Shown here piece after piece: positions 37,789-60,525 of a stretch of 64,000 bases of DNA. Origin of the DNA: an uncultured Lachnospiraceae bacterium (lineage in GTDB: Bacteria; Bacillota; Clostridia; Lachnospirales; Lachnospiraceae); NCBI GenBank assembly GCA_944381575.1, contig CALWLS010000007.1:48459-112458 (forward strand). Reading direction: 5' to 3'. Both the position numbers and the translations under genes were made by a program. The notes below the pieces were generated by a model. It was not told the origin of the DNA, searched no databases, and saw only the letters and a list, made by a program, of their open reading frames with translations. Each line of letters opens with the position of its first letter. The stretch's first letter is position 1.

Positions 37789-37830
37789 CCGAGCTCTGAG
37801 ATAACAATTATGAAATCCCATCACCTCTAC
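37789..37830 (-). repeat. att-like scar 1 (adjacent to Fic gene stop)
   Basis: This 42-base segment matches 39308-39349 at 31 of 42 positions by hand alignment without gaps. Both lie directly after the stop codon of an island gene (Fic here, SEC-C there). On the minus strand both read V-E-x-M-G-F. It marks the island's left edge next to sfsA. Confidence 0.55.
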
Positions 37831-37831
37831 T

Positions 37832-38929
37832 CTAATGCTGCCGGAATTGATATTTACCTTTGCCATGTCCCGACACCGGCTCGATGACTCTACTTTCCAC
37901 CATTTCTCTCAGAAGATCAGAGGCTCTGGATGCTTTAATATCAATCACTTTCATTACATCCGACCGTCCAAAGATCGTCTGACCCGGAAATGCTTCACAA
38001 AGTTTCAAAATGTGACTTGCTGTTTTCGGCCGGAACAATTTTTCAATGTCCGATTTTAGCGCCTCAATGTCCGGTTTTGCAGTTTCAATGTCCGGTTTTT
38101 CTATTTCCTTAAAGGTGCCGCTGATATGCAATGTCCGATTATGAAGCGGATTATTCTCGTTAAGAAGGAGATTGCGAAGGAACAATTCAAGGTACTCAGT
38201 CGTTTCATGAACGCCATTTTTTAAATCGTTATAATTTGCCCTGACAAGTGCATTCCGAAAATACCATGCATTCTCGGCAAAAATATCGTTTGTCACATCA
38301 AAGCCTAACGTGCGCAGATACTTGATGAAAAATACCGCCGTAGTTCTGGTGTTTCCCTCACCGAAAACATGGATCTGCCACAGTCTGGATACAAATACAG
38401 CAAGATGGCGGATGATCTCATCCATCGAGAGATTTTTATAGGAGAACTTCTTCTCCTCCGATAAGTCATAGTCAAGTGTTGCCCTAAGTTCCGTGGCACT
38501 GCCGTAGAGTACAGTCGCGCCATTCAGCACCCATTCCTTTTTCGTGATGTTATAATCCCGTATGTGTCCGGCGTGGGAATAAATACCGGTAAACAGTTTC
38601 CTGTGAATGGAGATGTATTCATTGGGTGTGAAACTAAAAGCACGTTCGGAAAGCAGCGCAGCAATCCGTGCGGAAACCTTGTCGGCCTCCTCAGTGCGAT
38701 CTGATGCATCATGGGTAGGATTTTCTTCGTAGTAAGTCTGCAAAAGCGCATTTGCCTCTTCAAAGGAAATCTCACCCTCGATATTCCGGACAGCAGTATG
38801 CACCAGATATTCTGATGTCTTCAGCCCGTCAACCGCCTGCAGCCCAATAGCCGTATGCCACGCATAGCCTTTATCCCGCTTCGCAGGCTCAGATTCTTTG
38901 ATATATTCCTTAAATGGATCTTTATTCAC
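37832..38929 (-). CDS. Fic-family protein
   Basis: A 365-residue Fic-domain protein. The active-site loop at 187-195 is HVFGEGNTR, a variant of HPFx(D/E)GNGR with the catalytic His, Phe, acidic residue, Gly-Asn and first Arg kept; the second Arg of the classical motif is replaced by Ala. Fic enzymes transfer AMP or another nucleotide part to target proteins. A C-terminal segment repeats KPDIE/KSDIE (about 275-295, coiled coil) before a winged-helix-like end with SRASDLLREMVESRVIEP. It is the last gene of the defence island, flanked on both sides by att-like scars. Confidence 0.88.
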   Translation of the reverse strand: MNKDPFKEYIKESEPAKRDKGYAWHTAIGLQAVDGLKTSEYLVHTAVRNIEGEISFEEANALLQTYYEENPTHDASDRTEEADKVSARIAALLSERAFSFTPNEYISIHRKLFTGIYSHAGHIRDYNITKKEWVLNGATVLYGSATELRATLDYDLSEEKKFSYKNLSMDEIIRHLAVFVSRLWQIHVFGEGNTRTTAVFFIKYLRTLGFDVTNDIFAENAWYFRNALVRANYNDLKNGVHETTEYLELFLRNLLLNENNPLHNRTLHISGTFKEIEKPDIETAKPDIEALKSDIEKLFRPKTASHILKLCEAFPGQTIFGRSDVMKVIDIKASRASDLLREMVESRVIEPVSGHGKGKYQFRQH

Positions 38930-39060
38930 TCCATATCACCTCATTATTTTTGTTCTCATAAGAAACCAGCTACTTCCACAGGTCTCGTCTAACAAGACTC
39001 TATCTTTGATACAATGTGCATTTCCCGAATATATATTCTGATTCTTGCGAAAATACTTGA

Positions 39061-39349
39061 TTTCAGGTCTTTCTCGGCTATTTTCCTTCAACCCTTGACA
39101 TCAGACATGCCGTCTCCACATGGCTCGATTGCTCCAGATTGATGTCAAAAATCCGCCGGACTGAGCCGTTCGTTCTCGGAAATATATCAACGGTATTTTT
39201 GACTTCAAAATAGCCGTTTTTTCGACCGCGCTCGTTCTTGGAAACAGGTCGATATGGTTGTCCCTACTTATAATATGGAACCGGCAAATCCTCCAGTCGC
39301 CTCAATCCTACGCTCTGAGGGAACAAGTCCGAAATCCCATCGTCTCAAC
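39061..39349 (-). repeat. att-like scar 2: tandem degenerate copies of an RlmD-like 3' end
   Basis: The 420-base gap between the Fic and SEC-C genes holds no complete gene. On the minus strand it contains three degenerate tandem units of about 50 bases. Their best frames read IDLFPRTSAVEKTAIL, then VDIFPRTNGSV, then SSHVETACLMSRVE and a stop. These resemble the C-terminus of 23S rRNA m5U methyltransferases (VDMFPxTxHVETVxLLS). The last unit (39071-39116) matches 60440-60485 at 35 of 46 positions, and 39308-39349 matches 37789-37830. The rest (38930-39060) shows nothing recognisable. Confidence 0.6.
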
Positions 39350-39350
39350 C

Positions 39351-40703
39351 TTAATTCTTCCCGTGACAGAATTTGTACTTTTTTCCGCTTCCGCATGGAC
39401 ATGGATCATTACGTCCTATCTTCTTTGGCCAGTTTGCTCTTTCCTGAACCATAAGTGGTATTTTGCCATCATACATAAGAGAAAGTTCTCTTAGTCGATA
39501 CAGGTATTCTGAAACACCCAATAAGGCCTGAAACATGTGCATCGCTTCATTTTCAAATTCGAGAAGGTATTCCGTTTTCTTTATGGTTCTGTCTTTTGGA
39601 TTTGGAATGTAAGTAATAACCTGACTCACCGCGTCACATTCAACATCATTGTGTCCAATCGCATTTCTCAGTTTTGCATTTACTACAACATCCAAGAAAT
39701 CGGTATAGACTTCTGTGTTCAAGCAAAAATGATACCTTGATGCCTTTGGGAGCTCTAAATAATCCTCTAAAGAAGATACATTCTTTTCCAAAGGATTCAT
39801 CGAATTCGCGTCAGCCCTGTATTTTATGTTATTAAGAGCGACCGGGATAACAAGCAAATTACCAAGGGCTTCATAAACATCCAAATAGAACTGTTTTACA
39901 CTATCAAAGCTACTTGTTGTCGAGCCTTCAACTTCAAAATCAAAAGAATCATCTTTGCAATATTGTAAAGCGAGAGCAGGAATGAGGCGCTGGTATATTT
40001 TTATAAAATCATCATAGACCTTATATATCAAATCCTGTAGCTCCTCAAGATGATAACCATCATGTAAATTTAAGAAGTCTACTAAGCTCTTCAGCTGAAC
40101 AGAGTCCAGTTTCATAATTCCTACACTAAAAGAGTGATTATCCAAGATGTCTTTTTTGAGTGCAGAATAAAACCCATGAACCTCAATCATATGAACAGCT
40201 CTCAGTACCTCAGATTCATCTCTGCACTGAAAGTATTGTCCGGAGAATTCCTTTTGTATCTCCTGAACAAGGTATTCACTATTACTTCTGAAGAGGTCAA
40301 TGATTCTTTTATAGCTCTTCCATTTCTTTTCTGTTGCATTAAGCTGTGATACCGCTTTTCCGAACTGCTCATATGAATCATCCGTCTTCATACGATTCAT
40401 ATAGCGGATAAACGGAGTAATGACGACTTCTTCCAACTCCGCTGCTTTGCCTTGTTTCACGGTCGGAAATTCACCAGAGCATTCAACCATGTAATCAGCT
40501 TCAGCATCCGGGATTTCATCCGCATTGTCAAAAGAAAACTTTAGCCCCGGTCGGTCTTGTCCTATCTTAACGCTGCCAGATAAGGAAGTACCACATTTAC
40601 CGCAAGCCACAACAATAGGATGTTCTTCTTGCCATCCAACCTGTAATCGGACTCTGGTAATACTTCTGCAAACCTGACATTTTATAAATGTATTAAAAAC
40701 CAT
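39351..40703 (-). CDS. Zinc-finger / HEPN-like / SEC-C motif protein
   Basis: A 450-residue protein, not a known named gene. An N-terminal zinc ribbon has C9-x2-C12 and C34-x2-C37. A long helical middle ends in [10 protein letters not shown], where R346 and H351 form R-x4-H, the RNase motif of HEPN domains. The C-terminus is a SEC-C zinc motif, [13 protein letters not shown] (C435, C437, C446, H447). HEPN proteins often act as RNA-cutting effectors in defence systems, and SEC-C motifs bind zinc and partner proteins. The Phe/Tyr-rich helices before the motif fit HEPN. The call of HEPN is mine from the motif; fold confirmation is missing. Flanked by att-like scars. Confidence 0.65.
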
Positions 40704-40729
40704 GCATTTTCTCCATTCATATTATAAAG

Positions 40730-40788
40730 CATTAAATCGCCTCAACCTTTGACAGCTCCGCAAGTGCATGGGTTTTCACCGTCTTAGC
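40730..40788 (-). repeat. att-like scar 3 (between nuclease and SEC-C genes)
   Basis: Directly after the stop of the upstream gene the minus strand reads A-K-T-V, an insert, then L-S-K-V-E-A-I-stop, related to the HVETxxLMSRVE tails of scars 2 and 4. GCCTCAACCTTTGACA here matches CCTTCAACCCTTGACA in scar 2 at 13 of 16 positions. Confidence 0.45.
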
Positions 40789-40789
40789 C

Positions 40790-41248
40790 CTAATATGCCT
40801 CTGCTGGGATCGATGCTCCATCTCTGACAATCTTGATTGTTCCATCATCAGAAATTTCTATTACAGAGACATCTTCAAGTAAATGCCCATGTGCTCGAAC
40901 ATAATACTCAGCCAGTGTTTCCTGCTTGCCACGAAACACTGCTTTTTTCATACAAAGCAGCTTCTTTGTCCCAGAAGGCAGAAAGCCAAAGTAAAATACA
41001 GCCTCGTCCAAGCCCATCAACTTTGCGCTCGGAACATTCCCGGAATCAGTCCACGTATAACATTTGCACTCAGCCACGATAGACCTGTCAGCATTGGCAA
41101 GATCAAACTTGTGCTCCTTTGGCGGTCTGCCGATGGGGATTGCTGCTTCTTGCTCAAAATATGTATTATATTTTTCTTTGAGAATCGTTTGCACAAATTC
41201 TTGGAACTTGCGTCCGACGTGCGGATTCTCAGAATTTAAATTTGCCAT
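40790..41248 (-). CDS. Putative PD-(D/E)XK-like nuclease, small
   Basis: A 152-residue protein. The ATG at 41248 is chosen because GAGGAG lies six bases upstream and just after the DUF262 gene stop (23-base gap). The core has HKFDLANADRSIVAECKCYTW, where D followed by E-x-K (ECK) matches the catalytic pattern of restriction-type PD-(D/E)XK nucleases. A preceding helix, HVGRKFQEFVQTILKEKYN, also fits such a fold. I do not recognise a named family. In the operon it follows the GmrSD-like protein and could be its accessory nuclease or an independent enzyme. Confidence 0.6.
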   Translation of the reverse strand: MANLNSENPHVGRKFQEFVQTILKEKYNTYFEQEAAIPIGRPPKEHKFDLANADRSIVAECKCYTWTDSGNVPSAKLMGLDEAVFYFGFLPSGTKKLLCMKKAVFRGKQETLAEYYVRAHGHLLEDVSVIEISDDGTIKIVRDGASIPAEAY

Positions 41249-41271
41249 CAGTGCTCCTCGTCCTGAGTGGA

Positions 41272-44200
41272 CTATTGCCAATCTACCGTTATATACGGCA
41301 CAATCAAATCGTAGAACTTCTTTGACCATTCTGCATGGAACTTTGCCATCTGCGGCCAGTCATCCTCGTTTTCAATGCTCACGTTATCAAGCTGAATAAA
41401 TACCTTTGAGGATTTGATATCATCTCCACGGTTCCACTGAAGCTCCGTTCCCAGCTTCGATTCAATCTCGCTCTTGTGCTGGTAAAGAGCATCAAACGCA
41501 GCTTTATTCTCTGACCTCTCCGCTCTGGCAAACACGACCTCTGAACGTGCAGAGTCAAAATTCGCAACACAGCAGAGGTAGAAACCTCCAATGCCAAAGA
41601 AGCCGTTTATCCAGTTGTCCGTACTCGGATTTACATTGCTGAAAGAGCCGGGATTACCATGAGCCTCATGGATTTGTGTTAAGGCATACGTCCAGTAACG
41701 TTTTCTGATCTCAAACCTCGTTTCAGAGGAATCACCGCTTATACTGAGATGCTCTCCAGTCATAGATAACGCTGTCGTGATCCGGTCAAAATGGTCGATG
41801 ATCCAATCAAATATTTTCGGCTGCTCTGCTGGATTGAATACATCAGCCTTCTCCTCAATAACGATGGAACGTGTTGTACCTGTCAATTTTGAGTATTCCC
41901 AATTTAGGTTCTCACCAAATTCGGCCTCAATCTGGTCTTTTAATTCCTTCAGACGGTTATAGGTATCCACATTATAGGTGTAGATGCCCATCTTGATTCG
42001 TTTACCATAGGGAATGGAAAAGAATAAATGATAACCGTTCGCGCCTATGTGCACATCGTAATATGTTCGACCAGCAGCTTTCTGTTTTGCTATATCGCTT
42101 GATCTGCCGTGCTCATTTGCATAATTTACGAATGCTGTCCAGAATTGCAGTTTTTGATCATCTCCGGAGCCTTCTGCACTTTCCTCGGATTCCGGTACGT
42201 TCACCGATACTTCCTCCAACTCCTCCGGGATTTCTCGTCCATCTTTGACGAATGAAATGCCGATCAGTTTTTCCAACTGTTCCTCGTCGAATTGCAGGTT
42301 CCAGCGTTCCTGCATAAATACGAGGAGTTTTTCTGTTCTGCTGTATATCTCAAATGCAGTCCAATCCTGCAGTTTGGATACCTCTATCTCTGAGTGAGAT
42401 CCATTCTCGTACCCGCGACGTCCCGTGGTTTTGGAATGCTTCTTATCCTCAAAACTATCATTCTGCAAAGCCGAGTTTACGCTCTGAGACAATGGCAGAA
42501 GGTTCCCAAGTGCTCCGGAAAGAATCTTGATTTCGGAATCCTTAAACTGCCGGTACATATTACGCCAGTAATACTTCGTCGGTGTCTGAGGGAGGATATG
42601 TTCGATGGACACTTTATCCTTCTCGGACTTTGTAAACATTGACCACGTACAGAAACGATCTATATTATTTTTCTCTGCCAGCTTAGCCTCATATTCATAA
42701 AAGAAGTAGCGCAGACTGTTCCAGTCGTAGTAGCCATTTCCTGTAGAAAAATATTTCTCAATTCTGGTGACAAAGTTCTGCGTGGCAAAATCGATATCGT
42801 TCGTAGTCCTGTCATAGATTTCTTTACAGAGAACATCAACATCTGTTTCTTTCACATACACCTGACGAGCAGCTCGATAATAATCACTGCTACCATAGGA
42901 TGCATTAAAATTACCCAAGCGAAATGCGACAAAGATAAAGCGTTCGATAGCTTCAAAGATTTTAACTCTGCTGTTTGCAGAAATATCCCGTCGACTGATG
43001 ATCGCAGTAATCAGAGGTCTGAAATGTCCGATGCCGATACGGTTAAGCCTATCGACTCGTTTTTGCTCTTCAGGAGTAAGATTAACACTTTCAAACGGAA
43101 AATAGGTGTCATACCAGTACTTCGCCATATCTTTGAGGCTGTTGACATAGTCCTCGATTTCTTTTGGCTGGAGTTTGGATACCTCTATGATTTCCTGTTC
43201 TTCTGTTTCGGGAACTTCCGTGTCGTCAGCATCATTTACATCATCGCTGATAACCGACTCGGCCTCTGTTTCAACCAGAACTGGTGCCTTTTCAAATATG
43301 CCCTTTGACGAGAACTTGCTCAGAAGGAATTTGATATAGTCATCGCCACGTTTACGGGAATACCTAAAATAGATAATCCAATGGGCACGCAGGAAGTCAT
43401 CGTCAGAAAGAGGAACACTCTTGTTCCTACCAAGCTGATAGTAGACTTCCTTCCAAGCGTCATTTATCTTCTTGCGGAGAGCAGACTTGTCCTTTTCGTC
43501 AAACACCTCATCATCATAAAGCGTGGTCAAATAGATCAGTCTGTTTTTCAATAGTTCAAGATTCGTCAGCTTCTTACCACGATTGTTCATAGTCTCAAAA
43601 GCTACAAATACATCGTAATCGTCGTCGATTTCATGAAGATTAAACATCAGGCGCTGTGTGAGCTTCTTATACAGCGTATTTACTGCCTCAAGTCCGCCTT
43701 CTCTAGACTCTTCATATAGCTTCCTGATGTTTTCTGCAAAAAAGTTCTTTGCAAACTTTAGATTCTTCGTATAGTAGGTCTCATTCACCGCGCCGGAATA
43801 CGGCTCATCGAACACCTTATATTTCATGTATTCAGCGCTGGGATTGTCGACCTCATAACCAAAAAGGTATGTTGTTACTACTCCATTCGGTGGTCTTTTT
43901 CGGCAGATGTATTTTGAGACGATCTCTTCGACCGTTTCATACCCCAGCGTGATTTCCTTATCAGACTTGCCCTTGTTCTCATCCAAGCTGCGCACGAATC
44001 CCACAATCTCGTTCAAAAGAATGACAAACGTGGTAATGCGCTGCTGACCATCGACTATATGGCAAGGCTTATATCCGTTCTCGACCAGCCACAGATCTTC
44101 ACCCCAACTGATGGTCTCCTTGCCTTTTAGAGGCTTAAGGGACAGGAGGCCTGTATAGTGATACCGATCAGTCTGAAGATTTACAAGGTCATCCCAAAAA

Positions 44201-44304
44201 TCCACCAACTGCTGCTGCTGCCATGCATAACCACGCTGATAGTCCGGTATCCGGAATAATCTATTTTGAAAGAGCAGCGACAATGGCTGCAGCTCATTTG
44301 CCAT
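41272..44304 (-). CDS. DUF262 / DUF1524 (HNH) / DUF4268 protein, GmrSD-like type IV restriction enzyme
   Basis: A 1010-residue single-chain protein. DUF262 occupies the N-terminus with FRIPDYQRGYAW (18-28) and the nucleotide-binding-type DGQQR (85-89). DUF1524 with an HNH-like IEHILPQ lies around residue 600. A C-terminal DUF4268-like region begins at FWTAFVNYANEHG and is followed by a second repeat-like part (FSNVNPSTDNWINGFFG). GmrSD enzymes use NTP hydrolysis to cut DNA carrying modified cytosine. Its place beside Mrr and a type I system suggests layered defence against modified phage DNA. GGAGGG precedes the start. The extra C-terminal copy makes it longer than many relatives. Confidence 0.88.
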   Translation of the reverse strand: MANELQPLSLLFQNRLFRIPDYQRGYAWQQQQLVDFWDDLVNLQTDRYHYTGLLSLKPLKGKETISWGEDLWLVENGYKPCHIVDGQQRITTFVILLNEIVGFVRSLDENKGKSDKEITLGYETVEEIVSKYICRKRPPNGVVTTYLFGYEVDNPSAEYMKYKVFDEPYSGAVNETYYTKNLKFAKNFFAENIRKLYEESREGGLEAVNTLYKKLTQRLMFNLHEIDDDYDVFVAFETMNNRGKKLTNLELLKNRLIYLTTLYDDEVFDEKDKSALRKKINDAWKEVYYQLGRNKSVPLSDDDFLRAHWIIYFRYSRKRGDDYIKFLLSKFSSKGIFEKAPVLVETEAESVISDDVNDADDTEVPETEEQEIIEVSKLQPKEIEDYVNSLKDMAKYWYDTYFPFESVNLTPEEQKRVDRLNRIGIGHFRPLITAIISRRDISANSRVKIFEAIERFIFVAFRLGNFNASYGSSDYYRAARQVYVKETDVDVLCKEIYDRTTNDIDFATQNFVTRIEKYFSTGNGYYDWNSLRYFFYEYEAKLAEKNNIDRFCTWSMFTKSEKDKVSIEHILPQTPTKYYWRNMYRQFKDSEIKILSGALGNLLPLSQSVNSALQNDSFEDKKHSKTTGRRGYENGSHSEIEVSKLQDWTAFEIYSRTEKLLVFMQERWNLQFDEEQLEKLIGISFVKDGREIPEELEEVSVNVPESEESAEGSGDDQKLQFWTAFVNYANEHGRSSDIAKQKAAGRTYYDVHIGANGYHLFFSIPYGKRIKMGIYTYNVDTYNRLKELKDQIEAEFGENLNWEYSKLTGTTRSIVIEEKADVFNPAEQPKIFDWIIDHFDRITTALSMTGEHLSISGDSSETRFEIRKRYWTYALTQIHEAHGNPGSFSNVNPSTDNWINGFFGIGGFYLCCVANFDSARSEVVFARAERSENKAAFDALYQHKSEIESKLGTELQWNRGDDIKSSKVFIQLDNVSIENEDDWPQMAKFHAEWSKKFYDLIVPYITVDWQ

Positions 44305-44343
44305 AATGTATTCCCTCCAACTTCCTGCTTTTTCGCAATCGAA

Positions 44344-45261
44344 TTACTCGTCCTGATATTCAGCCAGAGCATCCGTATCGATTGCCTTAATCTCAAACGT
44401 TTTCCTCGTTGACACACAGAAGTTATACTCAATCATCAGATTTGCAAGTCTCTCACCATCAATCAGAATAATGTGATGAGTATTTGCGTAATCCTTAGCC
44501 TTCTGCGAGAATTTAGCTGTTGTAACAAAAAGTCCATCACCGTGCTTCCCGGCAATCGCACCTACAAAGCTCTGAATGTCCGGCTGTCCAACGACTCTAT
44601 CCGGTGCCCATTCCTTAGCCTGCATATAGATCAAAGAAAAGCCGAGCTTGTCCTCCATGATCACGCCATCAATTCCATCATCACCGGAAGCGACTGTTGC
44701 ATGACTTCCGTAAGCTACAGTTCCATATCCCATCTTCGAAAGAAGATCAACAACGAGCTTTTCAAAGGTGTATGGTGAAATTTTCAGAACTTCACTCAAC
44801 AAATCAGATGCAAGGCTTGCATTAATCTGCTTGTATGCGTCTTCAAGCTGGTCATCGGGTGTAAGATCCGTCTGCTTTGAAATCACAGGCACTGTATCAT
44901 CTCCATTTGTAGGATCAGAGGCGGATGCAAAATCTACAAATGAAGGAAACTGTTCCAAATATTTGGAATCTATTTTCTCCGGATTTTCTGCAACCACCTT
45001 CTTTCCAGCTTCTGTAATAACAATAGTAGCGCGGGCAGGACTATCAAGGAGTCCAGCTTTTTTCAGATAAGTCTTCGCCCATCCGACCCTGTTTTTAAAC
45101 ACGGTTTGCCTGCCGCTCGGAAGCATTTCCGCGAGGTCTTCCGCTGATAAATTTAGCTGTTGAGCTAACACGGCAGTAACGTCTTTAATTTTATAGACCT
45201 CACCGTCTTTTACTGCTGTCAGTAAAGGCTTCATCAATTCATCGTATTTTGGCACTGCCAT
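44344..45261 (-). CDS. Mrr-type restriction endonuclease
   Basis: A 305-residue protein in two parts. Residues about 1-90 are an Mrr_N winged helix (MKPLLTAVKDGEVYKIKDV, VGWAKTYLKKAGLLDSP). Residues about 150-290 are the Mrr catalytic domain, with FEKLVVDLLSKMGYG, the Asp in DDGIDGVI and the Q-x-K in YMQAKEW. Mrr enzymes cut certain methylated DNAs. The ATG at 45261 is preferred because GGAGGAGG is seven bases upstream; a start at 45285 overlaps the zincin stop as ATGA and would also be coupled. Having an Mrr enzyme in the same transcript as a type I methylase implies it ignores that methylation or is restrained. Confidence 0.88.
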   Translation of the reverse strand: MAVPKYDELMKPLLTAVKDGEVYKIKDVTAVLAQQLNLSAEDLAEMLPSGRQTVFKNRVGWAKTYLKKAGLLDSPARATIVITEAGKKVVAENPEKIDSKYLEQFPSFVDFASASDPTNGDDTVPVISKQTDLTPDDQLEDAYKQINASLASDLLSEVLKISPYTFEKLVVDLLSKMGYGTVAYGSHATVASGDDGIDGVIMEDKLGFSLIYMQAKEWAPDRVVGQPDIQSFVGAIAGKHGDGLFVTTAKFSQKAKDYANTHHIILIDGERLANLMIEYNFCVSTRKTFEIKAIDTDALAEYQDE

Positions 45262-45281
45262 TGTTAGTCCTCCTCCTTGAC

Positions 45282-50800: not shown

Positions 50801-51016
50801 ATTTCCTGCTTCCTGTTGAAGCCGGGTAACGGCAGCATCAATCAGTTTGCCTGCATAACCCTTCAGTCGAAGATACTGACGCAGACGATCTTCCTTGATG
50901 TTCTTATTCTGATAATCCGACAGGTTACCGAGATACTGGTAGCCCAAGATTTCTGGATCTTTAAAGAACCGGATTACTCTTTCCTGTGTTTTAATTTCGG
51001 CATCACCAATACTCAT
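47837..51016 (-). pseudogene. hsdR: Type I restriction subunit HsdR interrupted by an in-frame TAA
   Basis: The frame is continuous for 1060 codons, except for one TAA at 49838-49840 (codon 393). There is no frameshift: the 27 codons after the stop keep the HsdR frame and lead into VVFVDECHRTQ. The upstream part (49838-51016) has the nuclease core RPDLVIYL..VIELK (D135, E149, K151) and Walker A TQGSGKT (308-314). The downstream part (47837-49756, GTG start possible) has the DECH box and the remaining motor motifs plus the C-terminal domain. The sequence context (GGA-TAA-GCG) suits a GAA-to-TAA change. Restriction is probably lost unless readthrough occurs; hsdM and hsdS remain intact. hsdS ends 16 bases upstream. 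Confidence 0.88.
49838..49840 (-). other. Premature in-frame stop codon in hsdR
   Basis: TTA on the plus strand is TAA in the hsdR frame, located between the Walker A and DECH motor motifs. Everything before and after aligns in one frame. Confidence 0.9.
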
Positions 51017-51031
51017 CTGGCAGGCACCTCC

Positions 51032-52309
51032 TTACACTAATCTGACCTTGCCGGTCAGCAATTCTTCCATCATACCTTGCTTTATTTTCTGATATTTCGA
51101 TAGTTTTTCTTCGAGTTTATGGATATCTGAATCCATATCAAAAAGGATATCAGCAATAACTTCCTGTTCCTCCATGGTAGGAGGAACGTACAAATCAAAC
51201 TTCACAAGATCTTTCTGATATAAGTGATTAATCGTTGATCCCGCCGACAACTGCTGAAGGAAGTCCTTAAATACTGAAGATTCCAACACATAAAACATGA
51301 AGTGTGCTGTATATGCATCAGTTATAGGCTTCACAACAAATACACCGCTGTTTAATGTTGCTGGCCTACTTAAATCTGTAATATACGCAACTTTACCTAT
51401 AGTGCCATCTTTTGTAAGAAGAAGATCTCCATTTGAAACCTGAATGTTTGGATCTTGCGCATATCTGTCATAATTCACGTAATGACAACCATTCCAATTG
51501 ATACGTCCATCTTTAAAGTCCGTTCCTGTAATCAAATAGGAATAACCTTCATCCAAATATTCAGCTGTAGTTAATCCCTGCCAGCCTATACGCGCTTTAA
51601 GCCTTGAGTTTTTCGCCAGATTAATCTTTATCCAATCTCCTGAAAAACCCTCCAGTCGTTTCTTTCCAGTTACAAGCATTTGCATTGTTCCCTGACGGAT
51701 ATCCTTTTTCTTCCGGATGAGCTTCTGCAGGTTGGTGATGAGAGCATCTACATCAGAAAGAGCATCAACAATCCTTTTTTGCTCAGATGCTTTAGGAACA
51801 ATTATTACTGTGTCTCCTAATGACCCTTTTGAAACCGATGAAACCTTCGTTCCGTGAATATACGGCAAGAGTTGATCATGGTACAGATGCGAGTTCATAT
51901 AATAGCCCAGCCACTTAGGTACAAACTCGCCGGACTTCACTCTGCACGGGATTGTATGCAACCCAGCCATTACCGGTTTATCAGAAGCATTCATTACTTC
52001 AGTGACCTTACCGACAGTCTCATCTTCGGCTGTATCTGCCATTACAACATCTCCATCTTGGAGAGGCTGCGCTGAACCCGATATCCGAACTTCATCATTT
52101 ATGTATGGGACATCCTCTCTGGTGCAATCAAGTACCTCCGGGAAGAGAATTAAGACATCACCGTAATGTATATTCCTGAATTGACCGCTGGCATAATTGA
52201 GCTCGGCACGGGAATATGTGTTGTTGTTCAGTATCCGGAAAGTATCTGAGAAGCTCTGAACGTTCCACTCTTCGGGTATCGTCCCTATTTCCGTCTTTTT
52301 TATTCCCAT
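51032..52309 (-). CDS. hsdS: Type I restriction-modification specificity subunit
   Basis: A 425-residue subunit that directs the methylase and nuclease to a two-part DNA site. Two target-recognition domains are seen: the first starts IGTIPEEWNV, the second near residue 225 with RLEGFSGDW. Each is followed by a conserved helix (ALITNLQKLIRKKKDIRQGTMQMLVTG and KLSKYQKIKQGMMEELLTG), the usual internal repeat of HsdS. Its start overlaps the hsdM stop by ten bases, so translation is coupled. No inverted duplicate hsdS or recombinase is adjacent, so no sign of specificity shuffling. Confidence 0.93.
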   Translation of the reverse strand: MGIKKTEIGTIPEEWNVQSFSDTFRILNNNTYSRAELNYASGQFRNIHYGDVLILFPEVLDCTREDVPYINDEVRISGSAQPLQDGDVVMADTAEDETVGKVTEVMNASDKPVMAGLHTIPCRVKSGEFVPKWLGYYMNSHLYHDQLLPYIHGTKVSSVSKGSLGDTVIIVPKASEQKRIVDALSDVDALITNLQKLIRKKKDIRQGTMQMLVTGKKRLEGFSGDWIKINLAKNSRLKARIGWQGLTTAEYLDEGYSYLITGTDFKDGRINWNGCHYVNYDRYAQDPNIQVSNGDLLLTKDGTIGKVAYITDLSRPATLNSGVFVVKPITDAYTAHFMFYVLESSVFKDFLQQLSAGSTINHLYQKDLVKFDLYVPPTMEEQEVIADILFDMDSDIHKLEEKLSKYQKIKQGMMEELLTGKVRLV

Positions 52310-54981
52310 TTGAACCCCATCCTTTCCAGATGAGACTTTACCTTTGCCTCATACTCTGTTGTATCAGACTCAAGCTGCGGAAGTGTGTTCTCGTAACGCT
52401 CTGCCAGCTCAATGATCCTGTTTGTCAGATGGTGGGAAATAGCAGCGTACAAATCGCTAATGCCAGAGAAGATGCTATCAAACCACTTTTTGTTTACGAG
52501 CAGATCGAGAATCTCATCGTCTGTAAGGCTGTCATATCTTGCTCGGCACTTTTCATCCAGAGCCTTGTTCAGATCCTTGACAACCTTGTTGTAATCTGAA
52601 ATCTTGCCACACAGCTGCAACGCAGCTTTCAGCTGGTTTACATCATCTTGCAGACTTTCCGGCACACTCTCCTCGGTACGAATAATGTGTAGGCGGTATT
52701 CGATAGAGCTCTTTGTGATTTTTCCCTTTTCATTAACTGCATTCTTGCACAACGGATGTCCCACAAGATATGCTTCCAGCCTCTTCTTCGTATTTACAAG
52801 ATGAAGATCCATGAGGATTACTTCCAGTTCTATGGTTTCTTTTGTTTCAATCGTGCTTGTCAATTCAACTATCTTTGCCTCTATATCCTTCGCTTTAACC
52901 TTTCCGTTTTCTGTCACGTCAGCAAGAGCAGATTCTTCGTCTGCATTTTCAATTAAATCAGAAAGCTTGGATTCAGTCTCCGCGACAATATTCTCCGCTT
53001 CTTCAATGGCGTTCTTTTCATCACGGAAAAAGGCATCAATCACTATAGATTTTGGAATCAGACGACCTTCCCAGCCGGTTACCTTCATCTCGCCTTTATT
53101 CTTACCCTGTGTAATTTCTTCTTCAATATTGTCCGTAGCTCTGGCATTGGCATAGCCATCCGTTTCGCTTATAATAAGCGACACATCATCGTTCATGACC
53201 TCATTCCAATAAGCCAACAGCACTTGATACACATCGTATTTATCGATCAATGTCAGGTGTTCAAATTCTGCAAGGATATCCTCTGCAAGGCTTGCAATCA
53301 GCTCTCTTGCAGACACATCTTCATCGAGGACAGAAAGAATCGGATATTCCTTTGCCTTCCATACTGCAAAAGCCTCGTCGAGTTTCTCACCATAATCCGA
53401 AAACTCGGCGTTTTTATATATTGTCTGACGGATATTCTCATGCTCTACATTCAGGCTGTAATACTTCTCGCTAATCGCCGTCAGCAACTCAGCCTTCAGC
53501 GAAGGGAACACATCCCAATACTTAGCCAGACTATCAATATCAACTGCCGGAATGCCACCATGAATATGCGCATAGATATCCTGAATATCCTCCGGATCTG
53601 TGGAGTCAATATAGCGGGTGATATTCAGGTTATATCCGTTCTTTTTTTCAATTTCATCGTTTGGTACGAAACGAGCATACTTGGGATCGGTTGTTATCTG
53701 TTCATTGAATGTCGTGATAATCCTGTAAATATCACGTTCACGCAGGCGATTTTTATTACCGTCCTTTACGTACCCTCGACTGGCATCAATCATAAAGATG
53801 CCCTGTCGATTTGCCGCACCCTCTTTATCAATAACAAGAACACATGCAGCAATACCGGTACCATAAAACAGGTTTGCAGGAAGGCTGATGATGCCCTTGA
53901 TCCAATGCTTTTTAATAATAGCTTCCCTGATGGTAGCTTCCGCGTTACCACGGAATAAAACACCATGAGGAAGAATAACCGCAGCTTTGCCGTTCGACTT
54001 CAGTGCTTTAAGAATGTGCATGAGCCAAGCATAGTCGCCGTTCTTTTCAGGAGGCGTGTCTCCATAGCCCTCGAAGCGACCATACTCTTTACCAGCAATA
54101 CCATCGCGCCAGTTTTTCATAGAAAATGGAGGATTAGCTACTATGTAATCGAAACGTTCAAGTATGGAATTATCGGATTTGTCAAGATACTGCGGATTTG
54201 AGAAGGTGTTACCGCTCTTTATGGTAATCTCGGCTTTACGGTGCAGGACGGCATTCATCTTTGCCAGACCGGCTGTGGTGCTTTCCTTTTCTTGACCATA
54301 TCCCATAATTGGAATCGGGGCCGTATCGATAGCTCGAATTAACAAGCTGCCACTTCCACAGGCCGGATCGCATACCGTGGCACTGGTATCCGTGCAGCGA
54401 CTGATACCTACCACATTGGCAAGAATTCTGGAAACCTCTGCAGGCGTATAGAATTGTCCCTTGCTCTTCCCGCTCTCTGTTGCGAATTTGCGCATTAGAT
54501 ACTCGTAGGCATCGCCGATGATGTCATCACCCTCTGCCTTGTTCCGGGAGAAATCGAGTTCCGGACGTTGAAAAATGGAAATGAGATCGGTCAACTTATC
54601 AACCATTTCCTTACCGCTGCCCAGTTTCTTCTCATCATTGAAATGAGCAATATCAATAACGCCCTTCAGGTCGGTATTCTCGTCAGCAAGACGGGCAATG
54701 ATCTTGTCCATGCCCTCGCCGATGTTCTTCTGTCCTTTAAGTGCAATAAAATCATCAAAGGAACAGCCTGTCCGCTTTTCCGGATCGGGCTCTTTATCAT
54801 GCGCCTTATCAAAGACCTTAATGTCTTCATATGCTCCTTTATTCTTAAATTTATCAGTTACATACTTCATGAACAAAAGCGTCAGGATATAGTCCTTATA
54901 TTCTGAGGAATCCATTCCTCCGCGAAGTTTGTCACAGCTCGCCCACAGCGATGCATATAATTGTGTTTTCTTAACGGCCAT
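52300..54981 (-). CDS. hsdM: Type I DNA methyltransferase subunit, long form
   Basis: An 893-residue N6-adenine methyltransferase subunit. The N-terminal HsdM helical domain (LYASLWASCDKLRGGMD) is followed by the SAM motif ACGSGSLLIRA near residue 207 and the catalytic NPPF in IVANPPFSM near 282. A large C-terminal extension (about 540-893) is charged and coiled-coil-rich, which makes it longer than the usual 500-600 residues. With HsdS it methylates the host DNA. It starts 37 bases after a small helix-turn-helix gene, with AGGAG upstream. No defect was seen, so methylation should still occur although hsdR is broken. Confidence 0.93.
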   Translation of the reverse strand: MAVKKTQLYASLWASCDKLRGGMDSSEYKDYILTLLFMKYVTDKFKNKGAYEDIKVFDKAHDKEPDPEKRTGCSFDDFIALKGQKNIGEGMDKIIARLADENTDLKGVIDIAHFNDEKKLGSGKEMVDKLTDLISIFQRPELDFSRNKAEGDDIIGDAYEYLMRKFATESGKSKGQFYTPAEVSRILANVVGISRCTDTSATVCDPACGSGSLLIRAIDTAPIPIMGYGQEKESTTAGLAKMNAVLHRKAEITIKSGNTFSNPQYLDKSDNSILERFDYIVANPPFSMKNWRDGIAGKEYGRFEGYGDTPPEKNGDYAWLMHILKALKSNGKAAVILPHGVLFRGNAEATIREAIIKKHWIKGIISLPANLFYGTGIAACVLVIDKEGAANRQGIFMIDASRGYVKDGNKNRLRERDIYRIITTFNEQITTDPKYARFVPNDEIEKKNGYNLNITRYIDSTDPEDIQDIYAHIHGGIPAVDIDSLAKYWDVFPSLKAELLTAISEKYYSLNVEHENIRQTIYKNAEFSDYGEKLDEAFAVWKAKEYPILSVLDEDVSARELIASLAEDILAEFEHLTLIDKYDVYQVLLAYWNEVMNDDVSLIISETDGYANARATDNIEEEITQGKNKGEMKVTGWEGRLIPKSIVIDAFFRDEKNAIEEAENIVAETESKLSDLIENADEESALADVTENGKVKAKDIEAKIVELTSTIETKETIELEVILMDLHLVNTKKRLEAYLVGHPLCKNAVNEKGKITKSSIEYRLHIIRTEESVPESLQDDVNQLKAALQLCGKISDYNKVVKDLNKALDEKCRARYDSLTDDEILDLLVNKKWFDSIFSGISDLYAAISHHLTNRIIELAERYENTLPQLESDTTEYEAKVKSHLERMGFKWE

Positions 54982-55655: not shown

Positions 55656-55680
55656 CAAAAGCCTAAGGAGGGCTTTCATT

Positions 55681-56193: not shown

Positions 56194-56346
56194 TACCAAT
56201 ACCACGAACCACACCCTTTCCGGCCACTGTCCCTTTTCGGATGGTGGCTGGAAAACTTTTTATAAAATCCTCCGCTCAAATCGGCAGTTCATCTCCAGTG
56301 GAAGGTGAAGGCAAGAGAAACCGCCTTCAGAAAGCGAGGTGAACAC

Positions 56347-56556: not shown

Positions 56557-56824
56557 TGCCGTAGCCGACTGGCTCTACCAGCAGTTTTCCGGCGACAACA
56601 ATTCTACACTGGAACCCACGAAGGCACCAGTTAAGAAGGAAACAAAACCACAACTCAAGCTGGAGGACGTAAGAGCTGTCCTTGCCGAGAAGTCCCGTGC
56701 CGGTCATACCGCAGAGATACGAGCCCTGCTTAAAAAGTACGGTGCCGCGAAGCTCTCGGAGATCGATCCGGCAAACTATGAAGCCCTGCTTCAGGATGCG
56801 GAGGTGATAGGCGATGACAGCTAA
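56492..56824 (+). CDS. Small helical protein of the replication module
   Basis: A 110-residue protein with the start at 56492, where GGAGG lies upstream. An N-terminal helix (MHETIEELRSAAASINAVADWLYQQF) is followed by a Lys/Pro linker and a C-terminal VRAVLAEKSRAGHTAEIRALLKKYGA domain. This pattern is common in Firmicute phages and mobile elements next to DUF2800; its function is not known. It overlaps the DUF2800 start by 11 bases, so the two are translationally coupled. Confidence 0.65.
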   Translation: MSKMAEMHETIEELRSAAASINAVADWLYQQFSGDNNSTLEPTKAPVKKETKPQLKLEDVRAVLAEKSRAGHTAEIRALLKKYGAAKLSEIDPANYEALLQDAEVIGDDS

Positions 56825-57953
56825 AGCACACGCGATCCTATCCGCATCCAGCTCCGACAGGTGGCTGCACTGCCCGCCGTCAGCGAGGTTCTGCGAAGCC
56901 TATGAGGACAAAGGAAGCGACTACGCTGCAGAAGGCACCGACGCTCATGCGCTCGGTGAGTACAAGCTGAAATCCGCGCTGGGACTTCCATCAGAAGATC
57001 CGACTGAAAGCCTCACATGGTATTCCGAAGAGATGGATGACTGCACCAGCGGCTATGCCGAATACGTGCTGGAGCAGGTCGAAGCAGCCAAGGAAACTTG
57101 TACCGATCCGGTAGTTCTTATCGAGCAGCGTGTGGACTTCTCTCGCTGGGTAGAACATGGCTTCGGTACCGCCGACTGCATCATCATCGCGGACGGCACG
57201 CTTCGGGTGATCGACTACACGCACGGCTTAGGCGTCTTGGTCTCCGCAGAGGAAAATCCGCAGATGCAATGTTACGCCCTCGGTGCTCTGGAGCTTTTCG
57301 ATGACATTTACGACATCGCTCAGGTTTCCATGACCATCTACCAGCCGAGACGTCAGAACGTCAGCACTTACGAACTCAGCAAGGACGACCTGTACCGCTG
57401 GGCAGATGAAGTCTTAAAACCCACCGCAGAACTGGCCTTTGCCGGTGAAGGGAACTTCCTCTGCGGTGAATGGTGTGGCTTCTGCAAGGCTAAAAATGAG
57501 CGTCATGCCAGAGCCGAGGCGAATCTGAAGCTCGTGCAGCATGATTTTAAACTCCCGCCACTGCTTACGGATACCGAGATTGAAGTCATCCTCGGCAAGG
57601 TAGATGAGCTGGTCAGCTGGGCTTCCGATATCAAGGAATACGCCCTGCAGCAGGCTCTCTCCGGTAAGGAATGGTCAGGCTTTAAGCTCGTCGAAGGACG
57701 CAGCAACCGCAGATACAGCAACGAGGCCGCTGTCATTGATGCGGTCGAGAAAGCAGGATTTGACCCGTATGAGAAGAAGCTGCTCGGCATTACCGCCATG
57801 CAGAAACTCCTCGGCAACTCCCGCTTTGATGAACTCCTGACGGCCTATATCGAAAAACCGCAGGGCAAGCCCACACTTGTGCCGGATAACGACAAGCGCC
57901 CGGCCATGAATACAGCAAAAAATGATTTTATGGAGGAAAACGACAATGAGTAA
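56814..57953 (+). CDS. DUF2800 protein, Cas4/RecB-like nuclease fold with altered active site
   Basis: A 379-residue protein of the DUF2800 family, a phage/ICE PD-(D/E)XK (RecB/Cas4-like) nuclease group. ILSASSSDRWLHCPPSA at the start, GTDAHALGEYKL, GTADCIII and ENPQMQCYALGA are family features. The Cys cluster CGEWCGFCKAK near residue 220 fits an Fe-S or zinc site. In the usual D-F/Y-K-x-G motif the Lys is replaced: here it reads IDYTHGLG, so catalysis may be lost. It precedes the DUF2815 ssDNA-binding gene, the standard order in recombination/replication modules. Confidence 0.85.
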   Translation: MTAKAHAILSASSSDRWLHCPPSARFCEAYEDKGSDYAAEGTDAHALGEYKLKSALGLPSEDPTESLTWYSEEMDDCTSGYAEYVLEQVEAAKETCTDPVVLIEQRVDFSRWVEHGFGTADCIIIADGTLRVIDYTHGLGVLVSAEENPQMQCYALGALELFDDIYDIAQVSMTIYQPRRQNVSTYELSKDDLYRWADEVLKPTAELAFAGEGNFLCGEWCGFCKAKNERHARAEANLKLVQHDFKLPPLLTDTEIEVILGKVDELVSWASDIKEYALQQALSGKEWSGFKLVEGRSNRRYSNEAAVIDAVEKAGFDPYEKKLLGITAMQKLLGNSRFDELLTAYIEKPQGKPTLVPDNDKRPAMNTAKNDFMEENDNE

Positions 57954-58518
57954 AAATGTAAAAATCAGCAATCCCATGAAGGTTATCACCGGTGCCAGCA
58001 CCCGCTGGAGCTACGCAAATGTCTGGAAACCGAAGTCCATCAACGGCGGCACTCCCAAGTACAACGTAAGCCTTATCATCCCGAAGTCCGACACCAAGAC
58101 CATCGCCAAGATCAAGGCTGCCATTGAGGCTGCCTACAAAGAGGGCGAGGCCAAACTCAAGGGCACCGGCAAGTCGGTACCAGCGCTTTCCGTCCTTAAG
58201 ACACCTCTGCGTGACGGCGATGCAGAACGTCCGGATGACGAAGCATACAGGAATGCCTACTTCGTCAACGCCAATGCAACTTCTGCTCCCGGCATTGTGG
58301 ACGCAGACCTGAATCCGATTCTCACCCGCTCCGAAGTGTATAGCGGCGTGTACGGCAGAGCCAGCATTACGTTTTATGCTTTCAACTCTTCCGGCAATAA
58401 GGGAATCGCCTGCGGACTCAACAATCTGCAGAAGATCCGCGACGGCGAGCCTCTCGGCGGCAAGGCAAGCGCTGAGTCCGACTTTGCTACTGATGACGAT
58501 GAAGATTTTCTTAACTAA
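57946..58518 (+). CDS. DUF2815 protein, phage ssDNA-binding-like (Enc34 type)
   Basis: A 190-residue protein with the DUF2815/Enc34 ssDNA-binding pattern: TGASTRWSYANVWKPKSINGG, KYNVSLIIPKSD and YSGVYGRASITFYAFNSSGNKGI, with an acidic tail (ATDDDEDFLN) like those of single-stranded DNA-binding proteins. It probably coats ssDNA during replication of the element. The start at 57946 overlaps the DUF2800 stop. The following gene is a small membrane protein. Confidence 0.85.
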   Translation: MSKNVKISNPMKVITGASTRWSYANVWKPKSINGGTPKYNVSLIIPKSDTKTIAKIKAAIEAAYKEGEAKLKGTGKSVPALSVLKTPLRDGDAERPDDEAYRNAYFVNANATSAPGIVDADLNPILTRSEVYSGVYGRASITFYAFNSSGNKGIACGLNNLQKIRDGEPLGGKASAESDFATDDDEDFLN

Positions 58519-58536
58519 GGAAAGGAGCGCAAAACT

Positions 58537-58728: not shown

Positions 58729-58791
58729 TCCAGTATCGCAGGCGGCTTAAGAGCGTTCTTAAGCCGCTTGTTTGAATTGAGGTGAAACTCT

Positions 58792-59112: not shown

Positions 59113-59168
59113 TTGGCTTTTACCTTATTTTATACTATAATTTAATGGAAAAGCTCGGAGGTGAGATC

Positions 59169-60215
59169 ATGAGAGCATTTAATTATTCTGAGATAAAAAA
59201 ACAAAAGTGGGATTCTGATATTCTCGGTCTGATTGCGGCAATCTATAAAGAAGCTGGCAAACAAGAACTGTATCTGAAACAACGCCCGCAGGAACTGGAA
59301 AAACTCGTTGAAATTGCCAAGATACAGAGTACTGAGGCCTCCAATGCTATAGAAGGCATTGTGACCACGAATACACGAATCAGGCAGCTCGTTGAGGAAA
59401 AAACAACGCCCAAGAACCGCGATGAACAGGAAATTGCAGGTTATCGTGATGCGCTGAATATTATCCATGAAAGTTTTGATGCTATTCCAATCACGCAGAA
59501 CTATGTCCTGCAGCTTCATAAAATTCTCTATAGTCATATGAATAACCCTATGGCGGGAAGAACCAAGAGTGTGCAGAACTATATCAGCGCCACCTACCCG
59601 GACGGTCATGTAGAGACCCTCTTTACGCCTCTTGCACCCTACGAAACACCGGAGGCACTGGACAGAATCTGCGAAGAATATAACCGTGTCATTGGCAATA
59701 TGGAAGTTGAACCGCTGATTGTTATTCCGATTTTCATTCACGATTTTCTGTGCATCCATCCGTTTAATGACGGCAACGGCAGAATGAGCCGCCTGTTGAC
59801 CACGCTCCTGCTCTATAGAAACGGATTCTATGTGGGAAAATACATCTCCCTGGAAGCGAAAATCGCAAAGAACAAGGATTTGTATTACAATGCTCTCGGT
59901 CAGGCGCAGATCGGATGGCACGAAGGAGCAGATGCCCCTATTCCGTTTATCAAATATCTGCTGGGCACTATCCTTGCTGCATACCATGACTTCGAAGACC
60001 GCTTTGCTCTGGTAGAAACAAAACTATCGGCACTGGAAACGGTACGCCGAGCTACAATGAATAAAATCGGGCGTTTTACGAAGCAGGATATCCGTGAACT
60101 TTGTCCTTCACTGAGTGTCAGTTCCGTAGAGGGGGCGCTGCGTAAACTGGTAGCATCCGGTGAACTGAAACGAGAAGGAAAGGGAAAGAATATCTGCTAT
60201 TACAGATTGAAGTAA
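59169..60215 (+). CDS. Fic-family AMP-transferase with inhibitory helix and winged-helix domain
   Basis: A 348-residue Fic protein. The active site HPFNDGNGR starts at H197 and is followed by MSR, a complete canonical motif. The N-terminal inhibitory motif S58-x3-E62-G63 (SNAIEG) matches the (S/T)xxxE(G/N) helix of class II Fic proteins that block ATP. The C-terminus (about 290-348) is winged-helix-like. GGAGGTG lies before the ATG at 59169, which is preferred over an upstream ATG at 59145. It follows directly after the polymerase remnant and is followed by a terminator, so it may be an independent insertion. Confidence 0.9.
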   Translation: MRAFNYSEIKKQKWDSDILGLIAAIYKEAGKQELYLKQRPQELEKLVEIAKIQSTEASNAIEGIVTTNTRIRQLVEEKTTPKNRDEQEIAGYRDALNIIHESFDAIPITQNYVLQLHKILYSHMNNPMAGRTKSVQNYISATYPDGHVETLFTPLAPYETPEALDRICEEYNRVIGNMEVEPLIVIPIFIHDFLCIHPFNDGNGRMSRLLTTLLLYRNGFYVGKYISLEAKIAKNKDLYYNALGQAQIGWHEGADAPIPFIKYLLGTILAAYHDFEDRFALVETKLSALETVRRATMNKIGRFTKQDIRELCPSLSVSSVEGALRKLVASGELKREGKGKNICYYRLK

Positions 60216-60285
60216 TTCCCTCAACAAAGCCAATATTCCATTAAATATGACAAGGATTTAAGGTAATAATCATGATAATAAGGTT

Positions 60286-60318
60286 AAGCATCTATCGAAA
60301 GGCAGATGCTTTTCTTAT
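60286..60318 (+). terminator. Intrinsic terminator after the Fic gene
   Basis: AAGCATCT (60286-60293) pairs with AGATGCTT (60304-60311) around a 10-base loop, followed by TTCTT. The rest of the 310-base gap to 60525 holds no gene other than the att-like scar at 60440-60485. Confidence 0.65.
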
Positions 60319-60436
60319 GCCCATTCGCAGAAACATCCCCGAGCCATTATGGTTCAGAGGTGCTTTTTGCTATTGTCCTATATGTTCCGCTCTCCGATGC
60401 TAAATTAACCTGATTACCTAAAAAGCACAGTACTAC

Positions 60437-60525
60437 TCATTCTCGGCTGAATTTCTTCGACTCGTGACATCAAAACTACCGTCTCAGCGGTATTACCAGA
60501 TTCCCACAAACCTCTACCTAGCTCT
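60437..60525 (-). repeat. att-like scar 4 at the end of the serine-recombinase element
   Basis: Bases 60440-60485 match 39071-39116 at 35 of 46 positions without gaps. On the minus strand the segment reads N-T-A-E-T-V-V-L-M-S-R-V-E-E, related to MVETVVLLSHK inside the recombinase encoded at 62.6-64.0 kb. It lies directly after the DUF4062 stop, where an integrated element would end. Confidence 0.55.

Follow-up and report, generated by a model that had tools for sequence, protein, structure and literature searches.

The 3′ end of rumA, the rRNA methyltransferase gene also called rlmD, is described as a hotspot of mobile genetic elements (PMC11578063), and in streptococcal integrative and conjugative elements (ICEs) 3′ parts have been exchanged between rumA and the genes of the serine integrases (PMC4701971). 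Here we analyse a stretch of 64,000 nucleotides from an uncultured Lachnospiraceae bacterium, called the window in what follows; it is positions 48459-112458 of contig C7 of genome G000, which comprises 2.0 Mb in 18 contigs (genomes, contigs and loci are given by our G, C and L numbers). Four short intergenic sites, S1 to S4, divide a defence island in this window, and we consider it quite probable that the genes they separate are recombinase-less cassettes of one to few genes, moved in trans by serine recombinases.

The streptococcal ICEs and integrative and mobilizable elements (IMEs) at rumA and the system described here have in common the target gene, its 3′ region and an att site within the integrase gene (PMC4701971, PMC5704250), and the 3′ exchange is like that seen in the rlmD genes on contigs C9 and C10 of the source genome, in the window recombinase and at locus L314. 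Those elements carry their own integrase together with conjugation or mobilisation genes, whereas the units here have no recombinase and hold one to few genes; likewise, a composite end with VDxFPRT repeats is a feature of our units and not of the streptococcal elements as presented there. In the window, the core sequence (the codons for VETVV) lies inside a serine recombinase gene that is cut by the contig end, and the Fic, SEC-C and restriction-modification (R-M) units are without a recombinase. Cis-mobilizable elements (CIMEs), and the accretion of elements at one site, also involve att-flanked, recombinase-less units in tandem; they are described as decayed ICEs or IMEs (PMC5704250), whereas units here go down to one gene in 1.3 kb and recur across genera. 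Flanks of the CIME kind are found around the Fic unit of genome G486 (31-bp repeats, one gene); the Fic gene of the window lies between S2 and a degenerate S1.

The staphylococcal cassette chromosomes (SCC, SCCmec) and the Enterococcus cassette chromosomes (ECCs) share with our system large serine recombinases and the 3′ region of a methylase gene. Multiple attR sites are reported for 16 of 32 ECCs, and type I R-M genes are among their cargo, as they are in the window island; the differences are rlmH in place of rlmD, a TATCATAA-type core, and a size of 21-78 kb for ECCs against much smaller units here (PMC6222049). Insertion at the rlmH 3′ end was not found at our sites, where the methylase that can be named is rlmD and once rlmA (L226). 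The nearest known kinds are the rumA-targeting serine-integrase elements, CIME accretion and SCC/ECC. In the open-access papers searched, we found no description of the small, recurrent, recombinase-less unit with a site behind the stop that we propose here.

A further comparison is with integrons. Each of their cassettes is a gene with its attC, the array stands at attI, and IntI is a tyrosine recombinase. Both systems line up single genes, all pointing the same way and each ending in a recombination site past its stop, and both carry resistance and defence cargo; unlike integrons, our system follows serine-recombinase logic with frame-keeping fusion to rlmD, and there is no integrase-plus-attI platform in 29 open reading frames (ORFs) of the window. 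A Pfam scan found no tyrosine integrase among these ORFs (27398-63991), and no attC search was made.

The four sites are all on the minus strand in one orientation, and each begins directly after the stop of a minus-strand gene (S4 after a DUF4062 gene, S3 after the gene for a 179-aa protein, S2 after a SEC-C gene and S1 after a Fic gene), just as an earlier, sequence-only reading of this DNA had stated. The right end of the window is the end of contig C7, inside the serine recombinase gene. The features, all on the minus strand, are as follows.

37789-37831, minus: scar S1 (site 37789-37830), directly behind the Fic stop and read as a degenerate proximal segment of a cassette end.
37832-38929, minus: Fic gene, 365 aa (Pfam; PADLOC candidate PDC-S72, E=1.7e-199), proposed cargo of the best-supported cassette.
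39006-39350, minus: scar S2, the full composite (site 39061-39349), from models, repeat scoring and alignments.
~39279-39350, minus: unit 1 of the S2 composite.
39231-39254 and 39169-39192, minus: the two VDxFPRT repeats of the S2 composite.
39087-39203, minus: right-end core of the S2 composite.
39029-39103, minus: left-end block of the S2 composite.
39351-40703, minus: gene for a SEC-C-motif protein, 450 aa (Pfam), proposed cargo.
40736-40789, minus: scar S3 (site 40730-40788), proximal segment only, with 23 points to the proximal segment of L230; neither end model matches.
40790-41329, minus: gene for the 179-aa protein, last of the R-M/GmrSD block (ORF without Pfam or PADLOC match).
41272-54981, minus: restriction block with GmrSD+DUF4268, Mrr, a YgjP/M78 protein, HsdR (two frames), HsdS and HsdM (Pfam, PADLOC).
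60373-60488, minus: scar S4 (site 60437-60525), core and left-end block (nhmmer E=6.4e-10 and 5.4e-6).
60487-60526, minus: putative 3′ stub of a serine recombinase at S4, reading GLWESGNTAETVV (alignment to recombinase ends).
60526-61485, minus: DUF4062 protein gene (Pfam), proposed cargo before S4.
61507-62487, minus: KilA-N protein gene (Pfam; PADLOC candidate PDC-S22).
62636-64000, minus: large serine recombinase gene, cut by the contig end, with the VETVV core and then an extension of ~100 aa.

The core is seen most directly at the ends of rlmD genes. The source genome has three genes of the rlmD type, on C4, C9 and C10: the C4 gene has a short tail (..CECVVKLERKF), whereas the ends of the other two are ..(N/H)VETVVLLSKGE(V/I)DSKKIRVEFSLED.., followed in C9 by an extension of ~100 aa, a region within which C10 runs off its contig. 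The window recombinase (Pfam Recombinase and Zn_ribbon_recom) reads MVETVVLLSHKSPDSVINVKVEF.. and then continues like the extension, matching that of C9 at 40%; the VETVVLLS segment that had been noticed in it is real. Among relatives, rlmD tails are short and native in some, extended in L043, L057 and L064, and of the form ..HVETVVLMSR.. in others, and in G016, of the same genus, the end of a serine recombinase runs into an LMSRV tail (L099). A degenerate core pattern occurs in 7 of 200 family genomes, at six rlmD ends and in one orphan scar behind other genes (L072).

In a collection with one genome per species, a 29-base core pattern gave 90 stretches, which by blastp (at least 45 aligned residues) end an rlmD gene in 58 cases, a large serine recombinase in 5 and neither in 27; by eye, L119 among the last group looks like the end of a recombinase gene, and L132, which contains runs of N, like that of rlmD. 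The records are assigned to Clostridia, Bacilli, Spirochaetales, Lentisphaerae, Sumerlaeota and others; many of them are metagenome-assembled genomes (MAGs), so that single phylum assignments may be wrong. In viral contigs the exact core was found in 4 stretches. When pairs of loci are compared across the core, similarity sets in at a median position of -5 bases (quartiles -26 to -5; rlmD genes add upstream similarity to these starts) and ends at a median of +34, and it can extend downstream for 2826 bp at 94.8% (a Clostridiales against a Spirochaetales record) or 5265 bp at 98.7% (L156 against L163). Since similarity starts approximately at the core and can run far downstream, the LMSRVE tail and the sequence following it are the left end of elements sitting at rlmD, and the core itself is where an rlmD gene, or a large serine recombinase gene, is joined at its 3′ end to this left end. 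In L107, L151 and L166, triplets of serine recombinases point towards the site, with variable cargo between the two; lysozyme- and holin-like genes, recognised by eye, follow the triplet in L151 and L166, which suggests that prophages also use the rlmD-type site.

It had been claimed that the four sites are relatives of one sequence and resemble rlmD 3′ ends. Models, direct alignments and linked alignments bear out the kinship, but S1 to S4 are different parts of one composite and not equivalent copies. They are supported as att-type junctions related to the 3′ ends of rlmD and of serine recombinases; S2 and S4 match models of the core, and in S1 and S3, which hold only the proximal segment, neither a core match nor, by position weight matrix (PWM), any FPRT repeat is found. 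A right-end model, built from 10 orphan scars of other genomes (VDxFPRT-type repeats, GACATCAAT and core), matches S2 at 39203-39087(-) with E=1.7e-18, with a second repeat at 39263-39212 (E=1.5e-4), and the S4 core with E=5.4e-6, compared to 0.41 at best in the reversed window. A left-end model, built from 74 loci with the window left out, matches S2 at 39103-39029 (E=1.6e-10) and S4 at 60486-60393 (E=6.4e-10), and gives no match at E<=10 in the reversed window. The Infernal model R1, made from 9 sequences without the window and used at E<=1e-6, has S2 as its only match in the source genome (5.6e-15); across the order it matches 30 of 246 genomes, the source genome included. The FPRT-repeat PWM scores the units of site 2 at 26.5, 24.3 and 6.9 (reversed-window best 14.0); of the three tandem units that had been proposed there, two thus stand above background but the third does not.

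Aligned directly, S1/S2 score 22.5 points and S2/S4 25 points, values reached by 0 of 1000 dinucleotide shuffles each and by 11 and 7 of 1000 random window segments, respectively, a control that could include the sites themselves. The proposed comparison with shuffled controls therefore comes out positive for these two pairs but not for the other four. Further links were scored against 5000 window segments with the sites excluded. S3 matches the proximal segment of scar L230, from another genus of the family (G429), with 23 points (0/5000), S2 unit 1 matches the same segment with 14.5 points (3/5000), and S1 matches S2 unit 1 with 22.5 points (0/5000); S1 and S4 show no match to the L230 segment (3786/5000 and 619/5000), and S1/S3 and S2 unit 1/S3 remain weak (1366/5000 and 171/5000). 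As a single nhmmer query, S1 finds S2 in the window (E=0.0076); a search of other loci totalling 1.57 Mb gave no match at E<=1 to either S1 or S3. The upstream part of S4 scores 19 points to the recombinase ends of L131/L160/L163 and 16 to that of L129 (0-1 of 2000 random segments), a fifth recombinase end, L110, being dissimilar, and we read S4 as the 3′ stub of a serine recombinase joined to a left-end block. The bare core scored behind stops gives p=0.005 for SEC-C, 0.11 for the 179-aa gene, 0.31 for DUF4062 and 0.32-0.35 for Fic. Chance is thus disfavoured for S2, S3 and S4, and S1 rests on its match to S2 and its place behind Fic.

The earlier claim that Fic forms a cassette holds well, as the same boundaries recur, once as a discrete insertion in rlmD. 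Relatives of the Fic gene (E<=1e-60) are present in 87 of 397 family genomes, the source genome included, with up to 92-93% protein identity in other genera. Of 29 Fic loci read, the one in G083 resembles the window over a stretch that begins at the S2 core (39127), takes in the left block and Fic, and ends in S1 (37800); G110 has the S2 core ahead of Fic and a match to S2 unit 1 behind it. In G522 and G573 the part of S2 between unit 1 and the core (39361 to 39112 or 39093) is matched behind Fic, where the window has only S1, and at L276 and L278 only S2 unit 1 matches in this place. Among 14 wider Fic loci, Fic lies 124-156 bp behind rlmD in L314 and L308 and 3.0-3.2 kb behind it in L309 and L305; in L306 it follows, by 0.9 kb, a serine recombinase ending in a scar, and the sequence behind Fic reads IETVVLLSK and a stop, a native-type tail. 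Seven of the 14 have a scar on at least one side (L302, L303, L304, L306, L309, L310, L311). The clearest case is G486 (L314), where an exact 31-bp piece of the rlmD end occurs twice, 1318 bp apart, with Fic alone between the copies and no recombinase; rlmD now reads ..CECVVKLERRS before its stop, and the displaced copy ..CECVVKLERRNEADMIRIH before its own. The rlmD tail of G486 has been exchanged around a single-gene insertion.

SEC-C has a 3′ end that is shared with seven other family genomes, standing behind Fic in four of them and behind other genes in three. Allowing <=3 mismatches, the S2 unit 1 pattern is present in 8 of 397 family genomes and its reverse in 0 of 397: it sits in the window and behind Fic in G573, G083, G620 and G110; at L324, L325 and L327 it follows another gene, at a distance of 206, 2 and 69 bp, respectively, and leads into a whole S2-type right end. 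Outside gaps, S2 is 78-83% identical (265-287 columns) to the ends behind Fic (L323) and at L324, L325 and L327, all from other genera. In L324 and L327 the core continues into a left half of the extension type, not LMSRVE. The right half at a core can thus be rlmD, a recombinase or the S2 type, and the left half the LMSRVE block, the extension or a native tail; many pairings of the two are found, which is what recombination at a shared crossover would produce. A SEC-C homologue in G193, 32% identical, has a weak match to the core behind it (E=0.0041 in 3.5 kb); as a class, SEC-C homologues of the family were set aside as support, the matches listed covering mostly the C-terminal SEC-C motif only, bar G193 and, partially, G086. 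Regarding the R-M cassette that had also been proposed, S3 does bound the block, but S3 is all that speaks for one unit, and as to cassettes being added one after another, att-type junctions bound them but no time order is seen.

For other genomes we examined 48 stretches, which account for 54 of the 56 R1 matches listed and contain 58 scars at nhmmer E<=1e-3. A nearest upstream gene (at least 100 aa, within 500 bp) is present for 44 of the 58 and is on the strand of the scar in 44/44, cases that are not all independent (L222 and L223 are nearly the same sequence, and one genome contributes several of the stretches); for the nearest downstream gene the count is 34/41. Seven upstream genes end in an rlmD tail (L239, L253, L254, L257, L262, L268, L269), that of L261 is truncated and rlmD-like, and that of L237 is a recombinase. 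Ten pairs of same-strand scars were found (L226, L224, L222/L223, L240, L225, L229, L227, L242), enclosing 873 bp with one gene and 3.7 kb in L226, one 1433-aa gene in 5.6 kb in L224, three genes in 3.75 kb in L222/L223, 9.9 kb including housekeeping genes in L227, and no gene of 100 aa in L242. At L226 (9245-10430) the rRNA methylase gene ahead of the scar array is rlmA and not rlmD.

A Pfam scan of 30 of the 44 upstream genes (cut-off 1e-5) gave matches to GmrSD (L232, L236), AbiJ_NTD3 (L260), RhuM (L246) and an SF1-type helicase (L225, L240), and resistance-type matches to APH (L233), a LinB-like nucleotidyltransferase (L244) and Arr (L248). The remaining matches are an ABC protein (L263), GyrI-like/Cass2 AraC (L247), P-type ATPase, Tox-GHH, SBF transporter, AAA/zeta-like, RlmA, YjbR, MerR, abhydrolase, SLH, cupin and DUF4357; 8 of the 30 had no match at this cut-off. 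For 10 hand-picked upstream genes, without a matched control, PADLOC gave four matches at 1e-10 (PDC-S53, BnzB, PDC-S14, GmrSD/Orf5) and none for six. Pairs of gene and scar recur across families: L244/L256 are 96% identical over 2947 bp, with similarity ending within 16 bases of the scar, and L233/L264 86% over 2.4 kb, with similarity ending 41 and 113 bases before it. In L232, L236, L244, L256 and L258, cargo and scar are preceded on the same strand by one or two large recombinases of the kind that forms triplets in L104, L107, L151 and L166. In G259, L225 (6115-8041) and L251 (5473-7399) share a 1.9-kb stretch, 99.6% identical, that starts inside the scar and encodes, by eye, a group II intron-type reverse transcriptase.

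At the level of sequence comparison, the homology of the ends, the strand rule, the cassette boundaries, one exact single-gene insertion with tail exchange and the joining of halves are established. Based on this, we suggest that large serine recombinases would recombine at a core matching the VETVV codons near the rlmD 3′ end and so give rise to the scars. The reading frame would be kept, the rlmD or recombinase gene gaining the tail of the element and the old tail being shifted to the far end. Single serine recombinases and recombinase triplets would be the autonomous elements at the core, and the same ends flank recombinase-less units: in the window Fic, SEC-C, KilA-N/DUF4062 and perhaps the R-M block, elsewhere units carrying GmrSD, helicases, other defence candidates and resistance-type genes. 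We infer that the recombinase-less units are moved in trans, by a serine recombinase encoded elsewhere. The cassette end follows its last gene directly in the window and in close Fic relatives, and within a few hundred bases in most other cases; units pile up in same-orientation arrays, and single ones, such as Fic, appear as discrete insertions in other genera. The copies in the window are presumably now largely immobile, S1 and S3 being degenerate and probably dead ends.

Several observations weigh against this proposal. No recombination was observed, and the recombinase motif used, which can miss some enzymes, was seen in only 10 of the 48 scar stretches and in none of the other 38. S1 and S3 are matched by neither the left-end nor the right-end model, and S1/S3, S1/S4, S2/S3 and S3/S4 are at chance level in direct alignment against dinucleotide shuffles. 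The models (E<=0.05) match only 8 of 29 Fic loci, and no scar was found by them in 7 of the 14 wider ones (L305, L307, L308, L312, which is contig-cut, L313, L314, L315), two of which have rlmD directly upstream. Core-like sequence behind the Fic stop (p<=0.05 singly) occurs at 6 of 30 loci, with 1.5 expected and the window Fic not among them, and more distant Fic homologues are without it. Empty sites, which had been named as a check, were not found in one search, for the Fic unit of G486: among 41 genomes around it the flank is matched by only G486 and G646, whose contig begins past the site. That many of the records are MAGs counts on the same side.

The claim that rlmD was the target in this particular island found no support in the window or its relatives. 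Integration at rlmD is found for the site family (58 of 90 core stretches, and the Fic unit of G486) but not inside the window, where no rlmD adjoins the island. As a possible neighbour of an ancestral rlmD, sfsA was tried and rejected, with rlmD beside sfsA in 0 of 24 loci of relatives (sfsA was found in 25 of 61 genomes, the source genome included; flanks were read for 1.5 kb or to the contig end, several being contig-cut). Both extended rlmD copies of the source genome (C9, C10) lie at contig ends; because these and the window stop there, the present address of the island is not settled by the assembly. Sequence of the recombinase or extension kind is cut by the ends of C7 and C10 and lies ~1 kb from the start of C9, which suggests that the contig ends mark assembly breaks at repeated element ends.

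Of the other explanations, the one that survives best is that the scars are decayed ends of large ICEs, phages or IMEs at rlmD-type sites, left by CIME formation and accretion, with the small units as remains that do not travel. This route is described for integrated elements in general (PMC5704250), and it would fit the degeneracy of S1 and S3, the recombinase 3′ stub at S4 and the short recombinase-like ORFs beside scars in L229 and L135. However, the same Fic, up to 92-93% identical between genera, recurs in different contexts with matching boundaries and stands alone between exact 31-bp repeats in G486, so that repeated independent decay to a one-gene unit is unlikely, and no intermediate of deletion from an ICE or IME to such a unit was seen among our loci. 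We regard decay as an appreciable possibility, though one short of even chances, and it overlaps with trans-mobilised cassettes, as units may arise by decay and then travel.

Far less plausible is that the scars are transcription-termination or RNA elements after genes, selected and shared by descent without recombination. The same-strand upstream genes (44/44) agree with it, and parts of the left-end block look hairpin-rich by eye. Yet records of different phyla show this DNA as an in-frame fusion with rlmD and with serine-recombinase genes, similarity runs on for kilobases downstream of the core, and the rlmD end is exactly duplicated around Fic in G486; terminators do not exchange protein tails, and we believe this reading to be highly improbable. 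Chance likeness of short intergenic pieces, over-read by eye, can practically be dismissed: four of the six direct pairs do not exceed shuffles and neither S1 nor S3, queried singly, has a match at E<=1 in the 1.57 Mb searched, but independent models reach 1.7e-18, 1.6e-10 and 6.4e-10 in the window against at best 0.41 reversed, the S2 unit 1 pattern occurs in 8/397 genomes against 0/397 reversed, and S3 stands at 0/5000.

Some further features of the window should be mentioned. HsdR lies in two frames, 47837-49756 and 49838-51016 (span 47837-51016, minus), and its type I R-M system is therefore probably broken or frameshifted. Between HsdM and a second Fic gene are phage-like DUF2800 and Enc34-type ssDNA-binding genes (56814-58518, plus), on the strand opposite to the cassettes. 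The second Fic gene (PADLOC SoFic, 59145-60215, plus) adjoins S4; in G194 (L310) an 87%-identical relative of it, in two frames, lies directly behind the first Fic and a scar. No tRNA genes that could serve as att sites are present in the window.

Returning to trans-mobilised cassettes, we speculate, as a tentative extension that we hold to be rather less than evenly probable, that they form an integron-like system served by serine recombinases. Defence, toxin and resistance genes, mostly one to a cassette and each with its own 3′ site, would belong to a shared pool circulating among Bacillota and perhaps other phyla, and cassettes would be inserted in trans, always in the same orientation, either at the 3′ end of rlmD or behind another cassette.

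Defence islands gather unrelated anti-phage genes, and to our knowledge the route by which single genes enter them is rarely visible. Here the joints can be seen, in a common recombination site, in the same gene with matching boundaries across genera and in a one-gene insertion with exact repeats. If mobilisation in trans is true, the sequence of the site would be a handle for listing candidate defence genes from junctions alone, and the gene-by-gene growth of defence islands would become a directly testable question.

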